Assembly: GCF_025950085.1 (NCBI RefSeq)
Contig: NZ_JAPDDS010000015.1
Coordinates: 1 to 64,000 of the forward strand
Source: Luteolibacter flavescens
GTDB lineage: Bacteria > Verrucomicrobiota > Verrucomicrobiia > Verrucomicrobiales > Akkermansiaceae
Reading direction: 5' to 3'
Length of the DNA stretch: 64,000 nucleotides
Each line of letters begins with the position of its first letter. Within the stretch, counting starts at the first letter, position 1. Below, piece by piece: positions 7,984 to 40,596 of the stretch. Made by a program: the position numbers and the translations under genes. The notes beneath the pieces are model-generated. The model was given only the letters and a program-made list of their open reading frames with translations, searched no databases and was not told the DNA's origin.

Positions 7984-9024
7984 TCACTCCCTCCCCACCG
8001 CCGCGCGTCTCAGGCGGTCCATGATCGCCACGCCCAGGCCCGTCTCGCTCACCGGCTCCGCCACGATCGCGTCCAGCCCTTGCTCGTCCAGGTGCCGCAT
8101 CACGTAGAAGAGCCGCACCGCCGCCTCGATCAGCTTGCCGCTGCCCGGGCTCAGCTCCTCCACCACTTCCCACTCGTGCAGATCGATGTAGCCCGCCTTC
8201 GGATCGCCGCGGTAGCTCAGCAGGCCGTACTTCTTCCCCGGCTCCGGCTTGAAGTCCTCCGGCTTCTCAAACATCAGCAGCGGCGTCAGCGGCGCATAGT
8301 GGCTCGCGAGCTGGCCCGGTGCCTCCGGATGCTCGGAGACCAAGCGCTTCTGGATCACCACCTTGCCAAATTTCTGCAGGTCCTCCTTCGTCACCGGGCC
8401 CGCCCGCAGCACATGGATCAGCGGGCGCTGCTCGCCCCGCGACTCGATCTTCACGATCGTGCTCTCCACGCCCTCGCTGCACGCACCGCCGTCGATGATC
8501 AGCGGGATGCGGCCGTCCAGTTCCTTCATCACCGCGCTCGCCGATGTCGGCGAAATGCGGCCAAACCGGTTCGCACTCGGCGCCGCGATCGGCCGGCCCA
8601 GCGCCTTGCCGATCTGGCGGAAAATCACGCTCCCGCTCTGCCGCACCGCCACCGTCGGCAGCCCGCTCGTCACGATGTCCGGCACCTTCGCCGACTTCGG
8701 CAGCACGATCGTCAGCGGCCCCGGCCAAAACGCCCCCGCCAGGCTCTTCACCACCGGCGCGATGTCCTCCGGCAGCTCCGCCACCTCCGGCAGCTCCTTC
8801 AGCGACGAGATGTGCACGATCAGCGGGTCAAATGCCGGCCGCTCCTTCGCGGCGAAGACCTTCGCCACCGCATCCGCATTGAAGGCATCCGCCGCCAGGC
8901 CATACACCGTCTCCGTGGGCACGGCCACGATTTCCCCGGCGGCGAGCAAGGCGGTGGCCTGGCTCACGGCGGTCTTCATGTCTTCTTCCTCGGCGGACAG
9001 GATGCGGGTCTCAATCTCGGGCAC
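7984..9024 (-). CDS. tsaC: L-threonylcarbamoyladenylate synthase, Sua5-type
   Basis: The enzyme makes threonylcarbamoyl-AMP from Thr, bicarbonate and ATP for the t6A37 modification of ANN-decoding tRNAs. The 346-residue protein has the YrdC fold at about 15-215: VPTETVYGLAADAF, KERPAFDPLIVHI, WPGPLTIVLP, GRPIAAPSANRFGRISPT. It also has the C-terminal Sua5 domain (PEAPGQLASHYAPLTPLL onward), so it is the long Sua5 form rather than the short YrdC form. PTVAVRQSGS departs slightly from the usual VAVR-x-P. It is divergent from aroK with a gap of 112 bp. Confidence 0.95.
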   Translation of the reverse strand: MPEIETRILSAEEEDMKTAVSQATALLAAGEIVAVPTETVYGLAADAFNADAVAKVFAAKERPAFDPLIVHISSLKELPEVAELPEDIAPVVKSLAGAFWPGPLTIVLPKSAKVPDIVTSGLPTVAVRQSGSVIFRQIGKALGRPIAAPSANRFGRISPTSASAVMKELDGRIPLIIDGGACSEGVESTIVKIESRGEQRPLIHVLRAGPVTKEDLQKFGKVVIQKRLVSEHPEAPGQLASHYAPLTPLLMFEKPEDFKPEPGKKYGLLSYRGDPKAGYIDLHEWEVVEELSPGSGKLIEAAVRLFYVMRHLDEQGLDAIVAEPVSETGLGVAIMDRLRRAAVGRE

Positions 9025-9136
9025 GGCGCGAGCTTGGCCACCCGTGGCGCGGCGGGCCAGCCCGGATTTAGCGCCCGTATTTACATTCGCAGGATTGGAT
9101 CTTTCCGCGCCCCCGGGCCGCCGTTACGATCCCGCC

Positions 9137-9685
9137 ATGCAACCCGCCGACGGACTTCCCAAGAACATCGTGCTCGTCGGCTTGATGGGCTGCGGGAAGA
9201 CCACCGTGGGGCGAAAGCTCCAGACCATGCTCGGCTACCCCCTCGTGGATACCGACCACCTCATCGAGGAAAAGGCCCGCCTGACCATCACCGACATCTT
9301 TGCCCGCCGCGGCGAGCAGGCCTTCCGCGAGCTGGAGAGCGCCGTGCTGAATGAGCTCTCCGCCCCCGGCACCCCGCGCCGCATCATCGCCACCGGCGGC
9401 GGCATCGTCGGCCGCCGCGCGAACCGGCGGCTCCTCTCCCAGCTCGGCTACGTCGTCTGGCTGCAGGCCCCCGTGGACGTCATCCTCCAGCGCACCGCCC
9501 GCAATCGCGACCGCCCGCTCCTCCAGACCGCGAATCCGCGCGAAAGGATCGAAAAGCTCATCATAGAGCGCAGCCCGCTCTACCATGAGATCGCCGATCT
9601 CGAGCTGGAGACCGCCGGCCTCGAGACCGAGGAAATCGCCTGCGGCATCCTCGAGAGCGCCCGCTATCACTTCACCCGCTCCTGA
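9137..9685 (+). CDS. aroK: Shikimate kinase
   Basis: It phosphorylates shikimate at the 3-OH in the aromatic amino acid pathway. The 182-residue product has the Walker A motif GLMGCGKT (15-22), the shikimate-binding DTDHLIE, FRELE and the GGG loop (about 87-89), and the lid arginines in RTARNRDRPLL. Length is typical. The frame is open further upstream only because it lies antisense to tsaC; the ATG at 9137 is chosen by family length. The other shikimate-pathway gene in the window, DAHP synthase, is 4.4 kb away and not co-transcribed. Confidence 0.95.
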   Translation: MQPADGLPKNIVLVGLMGCGKTTVGRKLQTMLGYPLVDTDHLIEEKARLTITDIFARRGEQAFRELESAVLNELSAPGTPRRIIATGGGIVGRRANRRLLSQLGYVVWLQAPVDVILQRTARNRDRPLLQTANPRERIEKLIIERSPLYHEIADLELETAGLETEEIACGILESARYHFTRS

Positions 9686-9733
9686 GCGCGCTGCGCTCCT
9701 CGCCGCTCGCCCTTCATCATCCCCTCCCCGGCC

Positions 9734-10333
9734 ATGAAAAAACCCCGCGCCCTCTCCCTCGCCGCCCTCCTCATCCTCCCCTGCCTTTCCACCGCTCCCG
9801 CCGCCGATGCCAAAGACCAGGACAAGGACCGGGACAAAGCCAAGGATGAGGTGAAAGGCGACGGCATCGTCACCGGGCTCCTCAAGGCCCGCACGGAAAA
9901 GCTGAAGCTCCAGCGTGTCGAGGCGGATGGCCGCACGATCTCCGCCGCACTCCTCATGTACCGGCTTCAGAGCGGAGACTTCCCCACCGAGAAGCAAGGC
10001 CTCAAGGCCCTCGTCGAAAAGCCCGACCTCGCCCCCTTCCCCCGACGCTGGGTCCGCATCATGGACAAGGTCCCCCAGGATGCCTGGGGCCGCGAGTATC
10101 GCCTCATCATCCGAGTAAAGGACGACAAGCCCATCCACCTCATCGTCAGCGACGGCCCGGACCTCGATGACCTCGCCGACGACATTGAAATGCCCGTCAA
10201 GGACCCCACGCTGAACCCTCCCCCCGAGGCCGACGCCAAAGCGGACGCCAAGCCAGACGCCAAGCCCGAAGCGGAAGCCAAGGAAAAGCCACAGGCAGAG
10301 GTAGAGCCAGAGGCAACACCCGCGCCCAAGTAG
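9734..10333 (+). CDS. Secreted GspG-domain protein with acidic/Ala-Lys-Pro tail
   Basis: The 199-residue protein has a cleavable-type signal peptide (LSLAALLILPCLSTAPAADA), a charged KDQDKDRDKAKDEVK spacer, then a domain resembling the C-terminal part of the major pseudopilin GspG. Recognisable elements are ALLMYRLQSGDFPTEKQGLKALV, PQDAWGREYRLI and VSDGPD. The C-terminal 50 residues are repetitive (ADAKADAKPDAKPEAEAKEKPQAE). No prepilin peptidase site or long N-terminal pilin helix is present, so it is a soluble periplasmic relative rather than a structural pseudopilin. It starts 48 bp after aroK and may be co-transcribed with it. Confidence 0.8.
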   Translation: MKKPRALSLAALLILPCLSTAPAADAKDQDKDRDKAKDEVKGDGIVTGLLKARTEKLKLQRVEADGRTISAALLMYRLQSGDFPTEKQGLKALVEKPDLAPFPRRWVRIMDKVPQDAWGREYRLIIRVKDDKPIHLIVSDGPDLDDLADDIEMPVKDPTLNPPPEADAKADAKPDAKPEAEAKEKPQAEVEPEATPAPK

Positions 10334-21953: not shown

Positions 21954-22045
21954 GATCCGGCCATTCTGGCGCGAATGCGGAATTACGCAAACGACGGAGC
22001 GCGAGCTTGAGTGGAAGGCCGGAAGCGTGGAAATTCAGGAAAGCC

Positions 22046-22759
22046 ATGGAACCGACCCTGCCGCCCCAACCCCCACCCGATGTCCCGGCCCCACCGCCGG
22101 GCCCGGAGGCGGAGAAGTCCTGGAACCGGATGACGTCGATCCTCCTGCTCGGTGGTATCTGCCTGTTGATTCTGACGCCGTTCGTTCTGAGTCGCCCCCC
22201 TTTCAAGGCACGCAAGAATGCGGACCCAGTCGAGGCGTCGCAGAACATCCGGCAAGTTCACATCGCCCTTTTGAATTTCGAATCTGAATACGGAGCATTC
22301 CCGGACGCATCGACCATCCCCGTGGTGCAATCGCGCACGGGGACCACGCTATCGCTTGGCAACAGCAGCTCGAATGAACTCTTCAGGCAGATGTTCGCCT
22401 CTGTTGCGAGAACGGAGTCGATCTTCTGGGCAAAAACCGCCGGCTCTCCGCGCAAGCCGGACCATCAGCTGGGAAGCCATACCCTCACGAAAGGCGAGTG
22501 CGGCTTCACCTACATCGCCGGGCTTTCTTCCAGCTCGGATCCCTTCGCCCCGGTCGCGATGGCCCCGGTCATCCCCGGCACGTGGGAATTCGACCCCAAG
22601 CCATTCGATGGAATGGCCATCATCCTCCATGTTAACGGCACCTCAAAATTTGAGCCTATCGACAAAAACGGCCACGTGATGACCGGCGGCATGAGCATCT
22701 TCGATCCGCGGCAGCCTTACTGGCGAGGCAAGGGCCCGGACATCAAGTGGCCGGAATGA
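22046..22759 (+). CDS. Paralogue 2 of the 'PPQPPPD...DIKWPE' family (first of four in tandem)
   Basis: The 237-residue protein begins MEPTLPPQPPPDVPAPPPGP, then KSWNRM and one transmembrane helix. The outer domain has QNIRQVHIALLNFESEYGAFPD, IFWAKTAGSPRKPDHQLGS, KGECGFTYIAGLSSSSDP, VIPGTWEFDP, VNGTSKF and the invariant tail GKGPDIKWPE. Unlike its sisters it reads NGTS where they have DGSV. The ATG at 22046 is chosen because it aligns with the sister starts; an upstream ATG (22007) would add 13 unrelated residues. The next copy starts 7 bp after its stop. Confidence 0.85.
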   Translation: MEPTLPPQPPPDVPAPPPGPEAEKSWNRMTSILLLGGICLLILTPFVLSRPPFKARKNADPVEASQNIRQVHIALLNFESEYGAFPDASTIPVVQSRTGTTLSLGNSSSNELFRQMFASVARTESIFWAKTAGSPRKPDHQLGSHTLTKGECGFTYIAGLSSSSDPFAPVAMAPVIPGTWEFDPKPFDGMAIILHVNGTSKFEPIDKNGHVMTGGMSIFDPRQPYWRGKGPDIKWPE

Positions 22760-22766
22760 TCCACCC

Positions 22767-23483
22767 ATGAACGCGACCCTGCCACCCCAGCCACCGCCCG
22801 ACCTCCCGGCCCCACCGCCGGGCCCGGAGGCGAAGAAGTCGCGAGACCGGATGACGTTGGTGATCTTGATCGGCGGCATCTGCGCGCTCCTCGCTATGTT
22901 TGCGGTTTCGGATCGGTTGGTGGTTGTCCGCTCTCCTGTGAGGGCGGATTTCGTCGAGGCCTCAAACAATATCCGTCAGGTTCACCTCATGCTGGCGGAT
23001 TTTGACGCCGAGTTTGGAAGCTTTCCCGATGCATCCACGGTCAGCGCAGTGCAGTCGGACACCGGCACCACCCTCGTTCTCGGCACGAGCAGCTCGAATG
23101 ATCTTTTCCGGCAACTGATCGCCTACAATGTGAACGTGGAATCGATCTTCTGGTCAAAGACCGATGGATCTCCGCGCAAGCCGGACAACGTGCTCGGAAG
23201 CGGGGCTCTCAAGAAAGGCGAGTGCGGCTTCACCTACATCTCCGGACTTTCGTCGTCTTCCGATCCCTCCGCACCCTTGGCAATGGCCCCGGTCATCCCG
23301 GGTACCTGGCGATTTGACCCGACACGGTATGAAGGCGATGCCGTGGTGATCCAAGTCGATGGCTCAGTGAAGCACTACCCCATCGACAAAAACGGCGACG
23401 TGATGATCGACGGCATGAGCATCTTCGACCCGCGTCAACCCTACTGGCGCGGCAAGGGCCCGGACATCAAGTGGCCGGAATGA
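22767..23483 (+). CDS. Paralogue 3 of the family (second in tandem)
   Basis: The 238-residue protein has the head MNATLPPQPPPDLPAPPPGP, basic KKSRDRM, a transmembrane helix (LVILIGGICALLAMFAV) and an outer domain with NNIRQVHLMLADFDAEFGSFPD, GECGFTYISGLSSSSDPSAP, VDGSVKHYPID and the tail GKGPDIKWPE. The N-terminal head and C-terminal tail are nearly identical to the neighbours, whereas the middle differs. That pattern is expected from tandem duplication with gene conversion or selection on both ends. Confidence 0.88.
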   Translation: MNATLPPQPPPDLPAPPPGPEAKKSRDRMTLVILIGGICALLAMFAVSDRLVVVRSPVRADFVEASNNIRQVHLMLADFDAEFGSFPDASTVSAVQSDTGTTLVLGTSSSNDLFRQLIAYNVNVESIFWSKTDGSPRKPDNVLGSGALKKGECGFTYISGLSSSSDPSAPLAMAPVIPGTWRFDPTRYEGDAVVIQVDGSVKHYPIDKNGDVMIDGMSIFDPRQPYWRGKGPDIKWPE

Positions 23484-23490
23484 ACCATCC

Positions 23491-24210
23491 ATGAATGCCA
23501 CCCTGCCACCCCAGCCACCACCCGACGCCCCGCCCCCACCGCCGGGCACGGAGGCGGAGAAGTCGCGCCGGAAGATGAAGTGGATTCTCCGGATCGGCGG
23601 AGGCTGCTTGCTCCTCTCCGTCCTCGCAGGCTTGGCTAATCCAAAGATCGTGCGCTCATCCACGAAGTCGGACCAGGTGGAGGCATCACAAAATATCCGG
23701 CAGGTTTACGTCGCCCTGTTAGACTTTGAGTCCGAGTTCGGAACTTTCCCGGACGGGTCCACCATTTCCGCTGTTCAGTCGCGCACAAGCACCCCCCTCT
23801 CGCTCGGCAAAGGCAGCTCGAATGAAATGTTCCGGCAGTTGATCGCCTACCGCACCACCACAAGCGAATCAATCTTTTGGGCCAAGACCTCCGATACCCG
23901 ACACAAGCCCGACAACGTGCTGGGAAACGGTGCCCTCAAGAAAGGGGAATGCTCGTTCACCTACATCGCCGGACTCTCCACCTCATCCGATCCCACCGCA
24001 CCGCTCATGATGGCCCCGGTCATCCGAGGCACCTGGCAGTTCGACCCCAAGTCGTTTGTCGGGATAGCCGTGGTGATCCACGTCGATGGCTCGGTGAAGC
24101 CCTACCCCATCGACCAGCACGGCGACGTGATGATCGGCGGCATGAGCATCTTCGACCCACGTCAGCCCTACTGGCGCGGCAAAGGCCCGGACATCAAGTG
24201 GCCGGAATGA
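23491..24210 (+). CDS. Paralogue 4 of the family (third in tandem)
   Basis: The 239-residue protein has the same layout: proline-rich head MNATLPPQPPPDAPPPPPGT, KSRRKMK, membrane helix, QNIRQVYVALLDFESEFGTF, then GECSFTYIAGLSTSSDPTAP, VDGSVKPYPID and GKGPDIKWPE. It diverges from the others mainly at IFWAKTSDTRHKPDN and around the membrane helix. It is spaced 7 bp from both neighbours, so one polycistronic message is likely. Confidence 0.88.
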   Translation: MNATLPPQPPPDAPPPPPGTEAEKSRRKMKWILRIGGGCLLLSVLAGLANPKIVRSSTKSDQVEASQNIRQVYVALLDFESEFGTFPDGSTISAVQSRTSTPLSLGKGSSNEMFRQLIAYRTTTSESIFWAKTSDTRHKPDNVLGNGALKKGECSFTYIAGLSTSSDPTAPLMMAPVIRGTWQFDPKSFVGIAVVIHVDGSVKPYPIDQHGDVMIGGMSIFDPRQPYWRGKGPDIKWPE

Positions 24211-24217
24211 ACCATCC

Positions 24218-24937
24218 ATGAACGCCACCCTGCCACCCCAGCCACCGCCCGACGTCCCGGCCCCACCGCCGGGCCCGGAGGCGGTGAAGTCGCGCCGGAA
24301 GATGAAGGGGATTCTCTGGATCGGCATCGCTTGCATGCTGACCATCTTTTTCGCGGGGTTCATCATAATGCCTAGCGAGCGCAACCGCAGGATAGCGGAC
24401 CGCACTGAGGCGTCGCAAAATATCCGGCAGGTTCACATCGCCCTGTTAGACTTCGAGTCGGAGTTCGGATCTTTTCCTGACACCTCCACCAGCCGTGTCG
24501 TGAAGACGGACACCGGCACCAAGCTCAATCTTGGCAGCGGTAGTAGTTCCAACGAGCTTTTCCGGCAACTGATCGCGTACGGTGTGAACGTCGAATCAAT
24601 CTTCTGGGCAAAAACCGCCGTATCTCCGCGCAAGCCAAACAACGTTTTGGGAAGCAATACTCTCGCGAAAGGCGAGTGCGGCTTCACCTACATCGCCGGA
24701 CTCTCATCCTCCTCGGATCCGTCCGCCCCACTAATGATGACTCCCGTCATCCCCGGCACATGGGAATTCGATCCAAAGCCATTCCAAGGCAAGGCCGTCG
24801 TCCTCCACGTCGACGGCTCGGTGAAGCACTACCCCATCGACAAGGACGGCCACGTGATAATCGGCGGCCTGAGCATCTTCGACCCGCGGCAGCCCTACTG
24901 GCGAGGCAAGGGCCCGGATATCAAGTGGCCGGAGTAG
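24218..24937 (+). CDS. Paralogue 5 of the family (fourth in tandem)
   Basis: The 239-residue protein has the head MNATLPPQPPPDVPAPPPGP, KSRRKMK, membrane helix (ILWIGIACMLTIFFAGFII), QNIRQVHIALLDFESEFGSF, GECGFTYIAGLSSSSDPSAP, VDGSVKHYPID and GKGPDIKWPE. It closes the array and is followed by a strong terminator 33 bp later. The single conserved cysteine (in KGECGF) occurs in all five paralogues and could form an intermolecular disulfide. Confidence 0.88.
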   Translation: MNATLPPQPPPDVPAPPPGPEAVKSRRKMKGILWIGIACMLTIFFAGFIIMPSERNRRIADRTEASQNIRQVHIALLDFESEFGSFPDTSTSRVVKTDTGTKLNLGSGSSSNELFRQLIAYGVNVESIFWAKTAVSPRKPNNVLGSNTLAKGECGFTYIAGLSSSSDPSAPLMMTPVIPGTWEFDPKPFQGKAVVLHVDGSVKHYPIDKDGHVIIGGLSIFDPRQPYWRGKGPDIKWPE

Positions 24938-35260: not shown

Positions 35261-36310
35261 TCACTCGCCGAAGAAGTGCCGCCCGATGCGCGATGCTTCC
35301 GTCCCGTGATCGCTCTCCCAATACACGTCGCGCACGATGTCCTCCACCGTTGGCGGACTTCCCGACTTCGCGAATTTCACGGACTCGATCGCTTCCTGCT
35401 TCGCCTGCGCATCGATCTCGTCCGCCTCGGATTCATTGAGAAGGCACGCCTCCACCAGATGCCGTCTCCATAGACCGAGCGGGTCCTTGGCCTTGTGCTC
35501 CTCGATTTCCTCGCTGCTGCGGTATATCTTATGCCTCGAGTCCGCGATGTGGAATCCGTGGTACCGGTAAGTCTCGATCTCGAGCACGGTCGGCCGGCAT
35601 TCGACCCGCGCACGCTGGAGCGCATCCGACACACGGGCCCGGATCTCATAAGGGTCGCTGTCCCCGAAACGATCCCACTCGATATCGTATCCCTCGGCAC
35701 GCTTGGCGAGACACTCCTTGAAGCGGGACGAGCGCGGCACCGACATTGACATCGCATAGCCATTGTTCTCGATGATGTACACCACCGGCAGGCCGAAGAG
35801 CCCGGCGAGATTCAGCGACTCGTGATACACGCCCTGATTGACAGCGCCATCTCCCAGAAAGCAAACAGCCGCCCCCGGTATCCCGCGTTGCTTCAGCGCG
35901 AATGCGAAGCCAGCCGCGAGAGGAGTTTGCGCGGAGGCCAGAGCATACGCTCCCCAGTGATTCTGATCCGGCGCGAAGCAGGATACGGCCCCGGCCTTGC
36001 CCTTCGAGATGCCGTTCGATCTCCCGAACAGCTCGGCCATGATTCCATTCATGCCGATGCCTGCCGCCAAGCCATGCCCCAATCCCCGGAAGCCGCTGAC
36101 CGTATGGTCATCCTTTCCCAACAGCGACCGCACGGACACGGCGATCGATTCCTGGCCGATATCGAGCGGAAGCCAGCCGCCGATCTCTCCGAAGATGTAG
36201 CATTTCATCGCCTGCTGCTCGAAGCGGCGGATGCGCATCATCTGCCGCAGCAGGTCGATCTTCCCCTCCGCGGACCAGTCCCGGTTGACGGCATGTTCGC
36301 GATATTCCAT
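35261..36310 (-). CDS. Thiamine-dependent dehydrogenase E1 alpha subunit (pyruvate/acetoin type)
   Basis: The 349-residue protein is the alpha subunit of an alpha-ketoacid or acetoin dehydrogenase E1. It has LPLDIGQESIAVSVRSLLG, YRYHGFHIAD and the thiamine-diphosphate motif GDGAVNQGVYHESLNLAGLF running to IIENN. The ATG at 36310 fits the family; the longer frame is antisense to modE. No E1 beta, E2 or E3 gene lies in the window, so it is an orphan subunit whose partner is elsewhere. It is divergent from the ModE-like gene with 50 bp between starts. Confidence 0.92.
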   Translation of the reverse strand: MEYREHAVNRDWSAEGKIDLLRQMMRIRRFEQQAMKCYIFGEIGGWLPLDIGQESIAVSVRSLLGKDDHTVSGFRGLGHGLAAGIGMNGIMAELFGRSNGISKGKAGAVSCFAPDQNHWGAYALASAQTPLAAGFAFALKQRGIPGAAVCFLGDGAVNQGVYHESLNLAGLFGLPVVYIIENNGYAMSMSVPRSSRFKECLAKRAEGYDIEWDRFGDSDPYEIRARVSDALQRARVECRPTVLEIETYRYHGFHIADSRHKIYRSSEEIEEHKAKDPLGLWRRHLVEACLLNESEADEIDAQAKQEAIESVKFAKSGSPPTVEDIVRDVYWESDHGTEASRIGRHFFGE

Positions 36311-36360: not shown

Positions 36361-36723
36361 ATGCCCGATGACCGCCCGATCCGCCTGCTGCTTTCCGGCG
36401 AGCTTTCCTTCGGCCCGGGGAAGGCGGAGCTGCTGGAAAAGATCGCCGCACATGGCAGCCTGCAGGCCGCCGCGGCGGACATGGAGATGTCTTACATGAA
36501 GGCGTGGAAGATGGTGAAGGGCCTCAACGAGCGCTTCCGCGAACCGCTCGTCACCCTGCAGCGCGGGGGAAAGGAGCAGGGCGGCGCGGCGCTCACCACC
36601 ACCGGCCGCGAGGTGCTCGCACTCTATCAGGAAGCCGTGGCGGCGGCGGAAAAGGCCAGCCGCCCGGTGCTGGGGAAGATGCGCAGGCTGCTCGCTCCCG
36701 ATGAGACGAATTCATCGCAGTGA
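36361..36723 (+). CDS. modE: ModE-type molybdenum-responsive regulator, HTH domain only
   Basis: The 120-residue protein matches the N-terminal winged-helix of ModE: LLEKIAAHGSLQAAAADMEM, then SYMKAWKMVKGLN, LVTLQRGGKEQGGAALTTTGREVL. It lacks the C-terminal molbindin (TOBE/Mop) domains that sense molybdate in E. coli ModE, so sensing must be indirect or lost. Short ModE forms are known in other bacteria. It sits directly upstream of a palindrome resembling a ModE box and the putative molybdate genes. Start chosen at the ATG at 36361. Confidence 0.88.
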   Translation: MPDDRPIRLLLSGELSFGPGKAELLEKIAAHGSLQAAAADMEMSYMKAWKMVKGLNERFREPLVTLQRGGKEQGGAALTTTGREVLALYQEAVAAAEKASRPVLGKMRRLLAPDETNSSQ

Positions 36724-36738
36724 CGCCGCGATGCCCTC

Positions 36739-36762
36739 CGTTATACTTTTCAAAGTATAACG
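36739..36762. promoter_or_regulatory. Putative ModE operator (perfect palindrome)
   Basis: CGTTATACTTT and AAAGTATAACG form perfect 11-bp arms around a 2-bp centre. The outer CGTTATA/TATAACG halves match the E. coli ModE half-site (CGTTATA-type) as I remember it. The site lies 15 bp after the modE stop and 21 bp before the TonB receptor start, where a bound repressor would block transcription of the downstream genes. It is AT-rich in an otherwise GC-rich region. Confidence 0.75.
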
Positions 36763-36783
36763 ACGGTGCTTTCGTCGCATCCG

Positions 36784-38724
36784 ATGAAAGCACTCCCCTT
36801 GCTGTGCCTCGCGCCGATGGCGGCGTCCGCGGTCGATACGGAACTCGGTGAACTCGTCGTGGAGTCGATGAAGCCGGACATCACCCACCGGCTCACCGCG
36901 GAGGAGGTGCAGGACTTCGAGCGGCGGAATCTGGCGGAGGCGCTGGACCTGCTGCCCGGCGTGAGCCTCACCCGCATGGGCGCGCGCTCGGAGAGCATGG
37001 TCACGGTGCGCGGCTTCGACCTGCGGCAGGTGCCGCTGCACATCGATGGCATCCCCGTTTACGTCCCCTATGACGGCTATGCGGACCTCGGCCGCTTCGC
37101 CATGCCGGGCGCTGGCGAGATCGAGGTGGCGAAGGGCATCAGCCCGGTGCTCGCGGGGCCGAATGCGCTGGGCGGCCTCATCAATGTCTTCACGCGCCGC
37201 CCGACGGAAAAGCTGGAGGGCGAGGTCCACGCCGGTGCCTTCTCCGGCGGCGGCTGGCAGGCGGGCCTGAGTGCCGGGGGACGCGAGGAAAAGTTCTACT
37301 GGCAATTCGACCTCTCGTGGCAGCAGCGCAGCGGCGTGCCGCTCTCGGATGACTTCGTCCCGCGCCCGACCGAGAACGGCGGCCGCAGGAACAACTCGTG
37401 GAGCGAGGACTGGCACGCCTCCGGCCGCATCGCCTGGACGCCCGCCGTGGATGATGAATACGTGCTCGGCTTCCGCAGCCAGCGCGGCGAGAAGGGCACG
37501 CCGCCCTACGCCGGCTACGATCCCACCGTGGCACCGCGCTACTGGCAGTGGCCGTATTGGGACAAGGACACCATCTACGTGCTCACTCGTACTTCGCTCG
37601 GCACGGACACCACGCTGGAGACGAAGTGGCACTACGATACCTTCCAGAACCTGCTGCGCTCCTACGACGACGCGACCTACTCGGACCAGACGCGCGGCTA
37701 TGCCTTCAATTCCTACTACGACGACTGGATCGCCGGTGCCTCCGCGACGATCGAGAACCGCTCGCTGAAAAACGTCCGCCTCGCCGCGGCGATCCACTAC
37801 CAGCGCGACCACCACGAGGAAACGGAGCCGGGCGAGCCGGTCTTCACCTTCGAGGATGAGACCGCATCGGTCGGCTTCGAGGCGGAGTACGACTTCGGCC
37901 AGGGCGGCTCGCTCACCGCGGGCATCAGCCACGACTGGCGCAGGATCCGCGAGGCAGTGGACACGAATACCGGCCTCGGCCTCACCGGCGAGAAGAACTC
38001 CTCGTGGAATCCACAGCTCGTCTATCGCCAGGAATTCACCGACTCCCTCGAGGGCCACGTCGGCTTCGCGCAGAAGAGCCGCTTCCCCACCATCAAGGAC
38101 CGCTACTCCTACCGCCTCGGCCAGGCGATCCCGAATCCAAATCTCGATCCCGAGACGGTGAACCACTTCGACCTCGGGCTGGGCGGCACCGCGAATGAAG
38201 GTCGCTTCCAGTGGGAGGCCGGACTCTTCTACTCGCGCATCGACGATGCCATCCAGCGCGTGGACAATGTCGCCTTCACCCCGGGAGGTGCCGGGCTCTT
38301 CCAGCTCCGGAATGTCGGCGAGGTGGAGCACCGCGGCTTCGAATTCGCCGCCGCGTCGAAATTCACCGACACGATGCAGGCGGGCTTCAACTACGCGTGG
38401 ATCTCCGCGGAGAACCGCACGAACCCCGCGATCCGCATCATCAATGTCCCCGAGCACGAGCTGCTGCTCTTCGCGAAGCTGGACCTGCACGAGCGCTTCC
38501 GCCTCATCCCGTCCTTCACCTGGGCGGACTCGCGCGAGGTCGCCAGCACCGGCAAGCGAGTGGGCACCTACGCATCCGTGGACGTGAAGGCGGAGGCAAA
38601 GCTCCCCGCCGACGTGACGCTCGGCTTCGGCGTGCTCAATCTGCTTGATCGCAACCAACAGCTCGACGACGGATTCCCCGAACCAGGCCGCACCTTCTTC
38701 GCCGATGTTCGCTATGAATTTTAA
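36784..38724 (+). CDS. TonB-dependent outer-membrane receptor, probably for a molybdenum/tungsten species
   Basis: The 646-residue protein has a short signal (KALPLLCLAPMAASA), a plug domain (LAEALDLLPGVSLTRMGARS, VTVRGFDLRQVPLHIDGIPV, GPNALGGLINVFTRRP) and a 22-strand-type barrel ending in aromatic ADVRYEF. The barrel most resembles siderophore/vitamin receptors, but nothing in the sequence names the ligand. Context does: it lies between modE plus a ModE-like palindrome and modAB, with overlapping or abutting genes downstream. The ATG at 36784 gives the signal peptide; a GTG at 36766 is less likely. Confidence 0.85.
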   Translation: MKALPLLCLAPMAASAVDTELGELVVESMKPDITHRLTAEEVQDFERRNLAEALDLLPGVSLTRMGARSESMVTVRGFDLRQVPLHIDGIPVYVPYDGYADLGRFAMPGAGEIEVAKGISPVLAGPNALGGLINVFTRRPTEKLEGEVHAGAFSGGGWQAGLSAGGREEKFYWQFDLSWQQRSGVPLSDDFVPRPTENGGRRNNSWSEDWHASGRIAWTPAVDDEYVLGFRSQRGEKGTPPYAGYDPTVAPRYWQWPYWDKDTIYVLTRTSLGTDTTLETKWHYDTFQNLLRSYDDATYSDQTRGYAFNSYYDDWIAGASATIENRSLKNVRLAAAIHYQRDHHEETEPGEPVFTFEDETASVGFEAEYDFGQGGSLTAGISHDWRRIREAVDTNTGLGLTGEKNSSWNPQLVYRQEFTDSLEGHVGFAQKSRFPTIKDRYSYRLGQAIPNPNLDPETVNHFDLGLGGTANEGRFQWEAGLFYSRIDDAIQRVDNVAFTPGGAGLFQLRNVGEVEHRGFEFAAASKFTDTMQAGFNYAWISAENRTNPAIRIINVPEHELLLFAKLDLHERFRLIPSFTWADSREVASTGKRVGTYASVDVKAEAKLPADVTLGFGVLNLLDRNQQLDDGFPEPGRTFFADVRYEF

Positions 38725-39205
38725 ACCGCTCCTCACCCTCGCCGCGATCTGCCTGATCGCCCCGCTCACCGCCGCGCCCTCGCTCCGCCTGCACGATGGC
38801 AAGGAGTGGAAGGAACTCGACGCCGCCGCCCTGGCGAAGCTGCCGCGCGTGGAGATCACGGCGAAGGCCCGCGATGGAAAGGAGAAGCGCTTCTCCGGCA
38901 TCCCGCTCGCGGAGGTGCTGAAGCTGGCAGGCGCACCCGCAGGCGATACCCTGCGCGGCGCGGAGATGAACCGCGTGGTGCTCTTCACCGCGGCGGACAA
39001 TTACCAGGTCGCCTACTCGCTGGCGGAGCTGGATGCCTCCTTCCGCAAGCAGAACATCATCCTGGCCGACCAGGTGGATGGAAAACCGCTGGATGAATAC
39101 GAAGGCCCGCTGATGGTGGTCGCCGGCGATGATCTGCGCCACTCGCGGTGGATCCGCCAGGTCAAGCAACTCATCCTCACCCGCGCCATCGCCCCCGCTT
39201 CATGA
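38714..39205 (+). CDS. Small exported protein with molybdopterin-oxidoreductase-like fold
   Basis: The 163-residue protein has a signal peptide (LLTLAAICLIAPLTAA). Its domain resembles the sulfite-oxidase/Oxidored_molyb family: ALAKLPRVEITAKARDGKEK, FSGIPLAEVLKLAGAP, NYQVAYSLAEL, VDGKPLDEYEGPLMVVAGDD and RWIRQVKQLIL. The only cysteine is in the signal peptide, so the Moco-ligating cysteine of true enzymes is absent and it is unlikely to be a catalyst. It overlaps the receptor stop by 11 bp and modA by 4 bp. A periplasmic binding role in Mo uptake is inference. Confidence 0.75.
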   Translation: MNFKPLLTLAAICLIAPLTAAPSLRLHDGKEWKELDAAALAKLPRVEITAKARDGKEKRFSGIPLAEVLKLAGAPAGDTLRGAEMNRVVLFTAADNYQVAYSLAELDASFRKQNIILADQVDGKPLDEYEGPLMVVAGDDLRHSRWIRQVKQLILTRAIAPAS

Positions 39206-39930
39206 AAGCCCTGCTCCTCCTGCTGCTCGCCTCGCTGGCCGCCACCGCCGCGGAGCTCCGCGTCGCCGCCGCCGCCAGCCTCGCGGAGACCGTCACGGAA
39301 ATCGCCGCCGCTTATGAAAAGGCCCACGGGACAAAGGTGACGCCCGCCTTCGCGGGATCGAACGTGCTCGCCCGCCAGATCGAGGCAGGCGCTCCGCTCG
39401 ATGTCTTCATCTCCGCGGACGAGGCCACGATGAAGAAGGTGGAGGAGGCAAAGCTGGTGCGCGACGTGACGAAGCTGCTCACGAATTCGCTCGTCATCGT
39501 CGTGCCCGCCGAGTCCGCCACCACGGTCACCTCCGGGAAGGACCTCGCGAACTTCAAGCGCATCGCCATCGGCGATCCCGCCGCGGTCCCGGCCGGGGTG
39601 TATGCAAAGACGTGGCTGACCGGGCAAAAGCTCTGGGACAGCATCGGCCCGAAGTGCATCGGCAGCGAGAATGTCCGCGCCGCCCTGGCCGCCGTGGAGT
39701 CCGGGAATGCCGACGCGGCCATCGTTTACAAGACCGACGCCGCGATCTCGAAGAAGGTGAAGATCGCGTGGACCGTGCCCGCCAGCGAGTCCCCCGCGGT
39801 CATCTACCCGGTGGCCGTCTGCACCGGGACGAAGCAGGCGGACGAGGCGGGAAAATTTGCGGGCTTCCTGAAATCCGAAGAAGCGTCGAAGATCTTCGCG
39901 GCCCGCGGGTTCGGGCTGGCGGAGGACTAA
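39202..39930 (+). CDS. modA: Molybdate ABC transporter, periplasmic binding protein
   Basis: The 242-residue protein has a signal peptide (ALLLLLLASLAATAAE) and the ModA fold: VAAAASLAETVTEIAAAYEK, PAFAGSNVLARQIEAGAPLD, VFISADE, and ESGNADAAIVYKTDAA with the oxyanion-binding tyrosine region. It binds molybdate/tungstate in the periplasm and delivers it to ModB. ATGA overlap with the preceding gene, and modB starts at the next base after its stop, so this is a tight operon. Confidence 0.93.
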   Translation: MKALLLLLLASLAATAAELRVAAAASLAETVTEIAAAYEKAHGTKVTPAFAGSNVLARQIEAGAPLDVFISADEATMKKVEEAKLVRDVTKLLTNSLVIVVPAESATTVTSGKDLANFKRIAIGDPAAVPAGVYAKTWLTGQKLWDSIGPKCIGSENVRAALAAVESGNADAAIVYKTDAAISKKVKIAWTVPASESPAVIYPVAVCTGTKQADEAGKFAGFLKSEEASKIFAARGFGLAED

Positions 39931-40596
39931 ATGACGGCGGAAGACACCAGGCTCATCCTTTTCACGCTCGGCGTCTCCGCGGCGGCGGTCGTCGCGGCAC
40001 TGCCGCTCGGCCTCGCGCTCGGCTGGTGCCTCGCCCGCAAGCAGTGGCCGGGGAAGGCGCTGGTGGAGACGCTGGTGATGCTGCCGATGGTGGTGCCCCC
40101 GGTGGTGACCGGCCTGGTGCTGCTGAAGCTCTTCGGAAAGAAAGGTCCCTTCGGCGGCTTGCTCGAGCAATGGGGAGTGGAGGTCATCTTCACGTGGAAG
40201 GCCGTCGTGCTCTCGCTGGCCATCATGGCCTTCCCGCTGCTGCTGCGCTGCATCCGCACCGCCTTCGAGGAAGTGCCGCGCCACCTGGAAGAAGCCGCCG
40301 CCACGCTGGGCAAGACACCGTGGCAGGTCTTCACCCGCGTGAGCATCCCGCTCGCCCGCCGCGGCATCGCGGCCGGCATCGTGCTCGGCTTCGCCCGCGC
40401 GCTCGGGGAATTCGGCGCGACCATGATGGTCGCCGGCCTCATCCCCGGGGTCACGGAGACCATCCCGCTCGCGATCTACCGCAGCTTCCACGCGGGCGAT
40501 GACGAGCGCGTCTGGATGCTCGCCGGAGTCTCCGCCGCCATCGCCTTCATCGCCCTGTGGATGGCAGGGAGACTGACGAAGGGACGGTCGCTATAG
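39931..40596 (+). CDS. modB: Molybdate ABC transporter, permease
   Basis: The 221-residue inner-membrane protein has about five to six helices and the ABC permease EAA loop (EEAAATLGKTPWQVFTRVSI, then PLARRGIAAG). VETLVMLPMVVPPVVTGLVL and RALGEFGATMMVAG are ModB signatures. It abuts modA directly. No modC ATPase gene follows; the next gene is on the opposite strand, so the ATPase must be encoded elsewhere. Confidence 0.93.
   Translation: MTAEDTRLILFTLGVSAAAVVAALPLGLALGWCLARKQWPGKALVETLVMLPMVVPPVVTGLVLLKLFGKKGPFGGLLEQWGVEVIFTWKAVVLSLAIMAFPLLLRCIRTAFEEVPRHLEEAAATLGKTPWQVFTRVSIPLARRGIAAGIVLGFARALGEFGATMMVAGLIPGVTETIPLAIYRSFHAGDDERVWMLAGVSAAIAFIALWMAGRLTKGRSL

Follow-up and report, generated by a model that had tools for sequence, protein, structure and literature searches.

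Gene content of the locus

The window, by which we mean the whole 64,000-nucleotide stretch of Luteolibacter flavescens DNA that was analyzed, carries five closely packed genes and one operator on its plus strand at positions 36361-40596. The nearest named homologues come from Luteolibacter and Haloferula. The features are the following:

36361-36723, plus strand: modE-type regulator, 120 aa (TIGR00637, 72.5 bits; PF00126 helix-turn-helix)
36739-36762, no strand: ModE-box palindrome CGTTATACTTTTCAAAGTATAACG, with perfect 11-bp arms, ending 21 nt 5' of the receptor ATG
36784-38724, plus strand: TonB-dependent receptor, 646 aa from the ATG (PF07715, 63.4 bits; PF00593, 110 bits)
38714-39205, plus strand: small SUOX-fold protein, 163 aa (PF00174, 24.9 bits; cut-off 24)
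39202-39930, plus strand: modA, periplasmic molybdate-binding protein, 242 aa (TIGR01256, 190.8 bits; cut-off 62.5)
39931-40596, plus strand: modB, ABC permease, 221 aa (TIGR02141, 216.5 bits; cut-off 182.6)

All five reading frames are open at these coordinates, and the order modE, operator, TonB receptor, Moco-fold protein, modA and modB is the one given in a preliminary description of the locus. The overlaps that this description had placed throughout the operon were seen at two joints, receptor/SUOX-fold (11 nt) and SUOX-fold/modA (4 nt), whereas modA and modB abut and a gap of 60 nt, which houses the operator, separates modE from the receptor gene. A GTG at 36766 is a possible alternative start for the receptor. 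Gene order and box exceed what chance would give, because both recur in relatives. Divergent from modE, at 35261-36310 on the minus strand, lies a PDH-E1-alpha-like gene (PF00676); it is placed likewise in the related loci L021-L024, and in L021 and L022 it appears as two tblastn pieces.

Relatives within the family and the phylum

Relatives of the receptor (E 1e-30 or better) were found in 9 of 145 genomes of the family, and relatives of the SUOX-fold protein (E 1e-8) in the same nine (Fisher p 2e-14, uncorrected for kinship). A modA gene is present in 9/9 of these genomes, vs 55 of the 136 other family genomes (Fisher p 5e-4, also uncorrected). Among the enlarged loci L021-L028, the arrangement modE - box - receptor - SUOX - modA - modB is kept in L022, L023, and L025, and L024 has the same gene order with a box spacer of 11 bases. 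In L021, the box, the receptor, modA, and modB are present, and the SUOX-fold copy is diverged (37%) and lies between modE and the receptor; the same interval encodes, at 8501-9751 on the minus strand, a protein of 416 aa that contains a single CxxCH motif and matched nothing in Pfam or NCBIfam. No modB was detected by tblastn in L026. The receptors of L027 and L028 are not adjoined by modA or modB, and the genomes (G036 and G143) have modA elsewhere.

In a sample of 387 genomes from the phylum, the receptor was detected in 14 (E 1e-90), the SUOX-fold protein in 7 (E 1e-12), and both in 6, so that at E 1e-12 the SUOX-fold protein is missing from 8 of the 14 receptor genomes. Ten extra stretches from the wider phylum were also examined. 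L168 has modE, the SUOX-fold gene, and the box; in L171-L174 and L176, a modE-like gene is accompanied by a box, without a SUOX-fold gene; and both modE and the box are absent from L169 (which is probably locus L105 again), L170, and L175. L176 (5675-6709) and the distant locus L062 (8884-9915) each encode near the receptor a protein of about 343 aa; these two proteins begin alike and matched no Pfam family.

Relatives across phyla

An alignment of 23 receptors was scanned against GTDB genomes. At least 594 stretches matched, 558 among the matches listed were confirmed, and the best 80 were kept; together with L021-L028 and the window, and after removal of L033 (from the same genome as L025), these make up 88 distinct loci. 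It should be noted that resemblance to the window receptor was the criterion by which these loci were picked, and that Flavobacterium, Dyadobacter, and Mucilaginibacter are heavily represented among them. Dyadobacter fermentans also encodes a homologue of the receptor, at 40% identity. In this set (best 80 of 558), the SUOX-fold gene was found in 71/88 loci, modE in 52/88, modA in 19/88, and modB in 16/88, the count for modA being that of modA inside the examined stretch. One or more of the five markers modE, SUOX-fold, modA, modB, and canonical box were present in 81 of the 88 loci, which come from several phyla. Four of the seven remaining loci adjoin molybdoenzyme genes: L062 is next to Fe-S, XdhC, and MobA-like genes, and L093, L103, and L106 are next to a full sulfite oxidase. 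Of the other three exceptions, L050 is accounted for by its box (see the operator below), and L105 and L108 have no such explanation.

The preliminary description had proposed that co-occurrence of the receptor clade with modA and ModE boxes be examined, and the association is there in the set drawn from the best 80 of 558, at 19/88 loci for modA, 51/88 for the canonical box, and 81/88 for at least one Mo marker. It had also named consistent ties to iron or cobalamin genes as an argument against its reading; no such family occurred among the scanned recurrent neighbours, a scan in which some short or antisense ORFs were left out and one ORF had no Pfam match. On a FastTree tree of the receptors, in which some long branches are unsure, the minimum number of changes was 16 for modE, 6 for the SUOX-fold gene, 11 for an MbnH-like gene, 1 for DHOR, and 8 for modA. 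Such repeated changes indicate that the links were not all inherited as one ancestral block.

The regulator and the operator

The score of the ModE-type protein against TIGR00637 (E 2e-20) is under the cut-off of 98.5 bits. The protein consists of the helix-turn-helix only, with no C-terminal molybdate-binding TOBE/Mop domain in Pfam and NCBIfam scans, and its relatives are mostly 111-148 aa long. A stand-alone TOBE-domain protein (one member scanned) recurs in 7 of the relatives' loci in the best 80 of 558 set and might provide the molybdate sensing that these short ModE proteins do without.

The palindrome is the sole exact match to CGNTAT-N12-ATANCG in the 5,907,561-bp genome. With one mismatch allowed, 32 matches were found, vs 28 for the backward control; the two are alike, and no further ModE target could be discerned among these genomic matches. 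The position of the operator just ahead of the receptor ATG is one where a repressor could block transcription, and a weak sigma-70-like match (one found, 0.5 expected) overlaps it. A canonical box lies 5' of the receptor in the 51 loci counted above, and a box score of at least 10/12 was reached in 50 of 89 receptor upstream regions of 260 bp (L033 included), vs 0.9% of shuffles. Eighteen loci, with titles indicating Flavobacterium where checked, have a diverged palindrome, CAGTATTCATTT..ACATACTG, at the position of the box, and the box of L050 is perfect if one takes into account that its start is over-long. As controls, 30 TonB receptors were drawn from a search of 19 related genomes. None of their 600-bp upstream regions reached a box score of 10/12, and tblastn detected no modE, SUOX-fold, modA, or modB in the 30 control loci, which, at about 3.3 kb each, are smaller than the test loci.

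The receptor

The receptor passes the cut-offs of both the plug (PF07715) and the beta-barrel (PF00593) models, and its structural model is a barrel (pLDDT 82.9). Close to the N-terminus of the mature protein, a conserved LGE-x-x-V stretch may be the TonB box. When the model was compared with known structures, OprC ranked first (TM about 0.8, around 16% identity), and PhuR, Cir, PqqU, XusA, and PfeA matched nearly as well; because these lie so near to OprC in the ranking, the fold leaves the cargo unsettled. In NCBIfam, the receptor has weak matches to models for siderophore, heme, and B12 receptors, with scores far under their cut-offs. A W-x-W-P-x-W motif is present in the window receptor and in 87 of 88 clade receptors (a count of the best 80 of 558 set with L033 included and the window taken apart), the exception being L089; it was found in 0/6 neighbouring TonB proteins. 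A search for viral copies of the receptor returned one stretch that matched a pattern and none that was a relative.

ModA, ModB, and the search for an ATPase

The window modA is the only modA match in its genome. No modC lies 3' of modB. The best ATPase match in the genome scores 199 bits against TIGR02142, short of the cut-off of 285, a strict threshold that only 1 of 14 control genomes reached. A whole-genome search with the ModC of a relative gave no clear candidate either, the three best ATPases having similar scores of 115-120 bits. Host auxotrophy for Moco was considered and ruled out: the genome encodes moaA, and the host therefore makes its own Moco, and PF00384 molybdoenzymes are present too.

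The SUOX-fold protein

The small SUOX-fold protein has an apparent signal peptide (judged by eye), and its model (pLDDT 90) has PruR among the closest structures. Asp95-x-Tyr97 is invariant in 72/72 SUOX-fold rows and is aligned with the PruR pterin-binding motif (N/D)-x-Y. The mature window protein has no cysteine, and thus no SUOX-family Mo-ligand Cys; among 72 relatives, 15 carry a Cys close to the Mo-ligand position. In a gap-free end alignment, the position of PruR Trp160 is occupied by Arg148. No GGDEF gene that could encode a DcpA-type partner was found among the scanned window neighbours. In L177, whose 12.5 kb contain no receptor, modE runs divergently from SUOX - modA - modB - modC; this arrangement links the SUOX-fold protein to Mo uptake even without a receptor.

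Two-heme enzymes beside the receptor

In the set that includes the best 80 of 558 matches, a two-heme enzyme is encoded beside the receptor in many loci, MbnH-like in 38/88 and DHOR in 9/88; the window operon has no MbnH-family two-heme enzyme. Two CxxCH motifs are present in 38/38 of the MbnH-like proteins and 9/9 of the DHOR proteins (Pfam PF03150; PF06537, one member scanned each). For 5/5 scanned MbnH-like proteins, the best match was TIGR04039, "MbnH family di-heme enzyme", at 253-279 bits, under the cut-off of 362.85. The best PDB match of an MbnH-like protein was 6e1c, "Di-heme enzyme", which we take to be MbnH. In seven proteobacterial loci without a SUOX-fold gene, a PF13343 solute-binding protein is encoded 3' of the receptor; in L041, L050-L052, and L055-L057, the PF13343 protein has a long C-terminal part and lies between the receptor and the DHOR two-heme protein.

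A conserved Trp of the SUOX-fold proteins was considered as the target of the MbnH-like enzyme and rejected, as no Trp is common to a majority of the 38 SUOX-fold rows whose loci encode the enzyme. Trp-to-kynurenine chemistry on these proteins is therefore not indicated.

Comparison with known systems

Like the ModE-ModABC system of the Escherichia coli type, the window operon encodes ModA and ModB and has a ModE-like box, together with a candidate DNA-binding domain of ModE type; it differs from that system in having a receptor and a SUOX-fold protein in addition, and in having neither modC nor the sensing part of ModE. Reviews describe molybdate as passing the outer membrane by diffusion through porins (PMC8264917). 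The predicted receptor fold is shared with OprC and other TonB receptors for ions and metallophores, OprC coming first; unlike these, the window clade has ModE-box control and the W-x-W-P-x-W motif.

The copper (methanobactin) loci MbnT-MbnP-MbnH resemble the relatives in that an MbnH-family two-heme enzyme lies beside a TonB receptor (5/5 scanned relatives). According to one report, the TonB receptor MbnT of copper loci frequently has an MbnH and MbnP pair next to it, and in a similar pair a Trp is turned to kynurenine at a copper site (PMC3621798). In contrast, the Mo loci have a Mo regulator and a SUOX-fold protein, and their MbnH scores are under cut-off; the comparison covers the receptor and MbnH. 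With PruR, the window protein shares a small periplasm-type SUOX fold, the (N/D)-x-Y motif, and the absence of the Mo-Cys. However, it sits with Mo transport genes, whereas PruR sits with c-di-GMP enzymes, and Trp160 is replaced by Arg.

An outer-membrane protein for molybdate delivery has been proposed for the ModA-IcmP route (type VI secretion) of Pseudomonas aeruginosa (PMC8602904). That route uses a secreted ModA and the metalloproteinase IcmP, whereas the window has a TonB receptor under a ModE box. No description of a TonB receptor for molybdate was found in open-access full texts; subscription papers were mostly, and bioRxiv preprints wholly, outside this search, and an earlier mention is possible. 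The new parts are the MbnH-like or DHOR enzyme beside the receptor and the SUOX-fold protein with a PruR-type Asp-x-Tyr.

Proposed function and alternatives

On the basis of gene content and order, the box, conservation, and co-occurrence, we consider it quite likely that the operon serves to acquire, under ModE control, a Mo or W species across the outer membrane and to feed ModA-ModB with it, a judgement that excludes the chemical form of the metal. This agrees with the Mo uptake reading of the preliminary description, which gains genomic support from the ties of the relatives to Mo (81/88 loci, best 80 of 558 set). The molybdophore that it also suggested did not find such support, as no chelator-synthesis family was present among the scanned recurrent neighbours. 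In the proposed mechanism, when Mo is short, the ModE-type protein, acting as a repressor, would leave the box, and the receptor, the SUOX-fold protein, ModA, and ModB would be produced. The receptor, energized by TonB, would admit the scarce form of Mo (or W) to the periplasm, where the SUOX-fold protein may bind that form or its ligand. Molybdate would then pass to ModA and on to ModB, working with an ATPase encoded elsewhere. The two-heme enzyme, present in about half of the relatives and absent here, probably oxidizes the ligand or matures a partner.

Several observations count against the Mo reading. The ModE protein has no sensing domain and scores under cut-off, there is no clear modC, and modA is in 19 of 88 loci (best 80 of 558). 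Moreover, the SUOX-fold protein is missing from 8/14 phylum receptor genomes, and L169/L105, L170, and L175 have no modE or box.

As regards the imported species, a tentative possibility is that free molybdate or tungstate is taken up directly, as OprC does copper, with the SUOX-fold and heme proteins being accessory. The top rank of OprC among the fold matches is in line with this, as are ModA as the downstream binding protein and a window operon without a heme enzyme. However, identity to OprC is low, PhuR, Cir, and PqqU are nearly as close, and a SUOX-fold or solute-binding protein together with a two-heme enzyme is hard to account for under direct uptake.

Catecholates bind molybdate, and Mo bound to the catecholate chelators of neighbours might be imported, the two-heme enzyme oxidizing the catechol and so freeing the metal. 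The weak receptor matches include siderophore-receptor models, and PfeA, a catecholate receptor, is among the fold matches. We find this rather doubtful, given that chelator synthesis is not represented among the scanned recurrent neighbours and that the PruR-like SUOX-fold protein would be left unexplained.

Salvage of pterin-bound Mo (Moco or its fragments) from neighbours would make the receptor clade a Mo parallel to the salvage of cofactors and metallophores. It would give that protein a role, namely holding the pterin in the periplasm; in the many lineages that have it, the MbnH-like or DHOR two-heme enzyme would strip or mature it by oxidation, and molybdate would go to ModA. We judge this unlikely: PruR Trp160 is Arg148 here, the host has moaA and makes its own Moco, and the PruR site is too small for Moco in the judgement of a review. 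On the other side stand the SUOX fold, the place of PruR among its nearest structural matches, the invariant Asp95-x-Tyr97 aligned with the PruR pterin motif, and PqqU, a precedent for cofactor import by TonB receptors.

It is also conceivable, at a decidedly low probability, that the receptor is Mo-regulated and has another cargo, such as a molybdoenzyme substrate or a signalling pterin, with ModA and ModB as mere operon companions. The receptors of L062, L093, L103, and L106 do adjoin molybdoenzymes and not transport genes, but these enzymes differ (sulfite oxidase and xanthine-dehydrogenase type), so that no one substrate fits, and the window receptor gene overlaps or packs with the SUOX-fold, modA, and modB genes. 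Finally, an ordinary iron-siderophore, heme, or B12 receptor placed beside mod genes by chance, which the weak, far sub-cut-off NCBIfam matches would suggest, is scarcely credible and already disfavoured in view of the Mo linkage in 81/88 loci from several phyla (best 80 of 558 set) and the lack of an iron or B12 family among the scanned recurrent neighbours.

If the operon does acquire Mo or W across the outer membrane as we propose, Mo would join the metals with a dedicated, energized outer-membrane route, in several phyla. This would show by what means Bacteroidota and Verrucomicrobiota compete for a trace metal, and it would assign a role to receptors that currently carry the label "iron complex outer membrane receptor". 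It would also connect metal uptake with SUOX-fold proteins of the pterin type and with MbnH-like enzymes.

A tandem array elsewhere in the window

At 22007-24937 on the plus strand, the window also contains four tandem ORFs of 238-250 aa with no Pfam match, which are about two thirds identical to one another.
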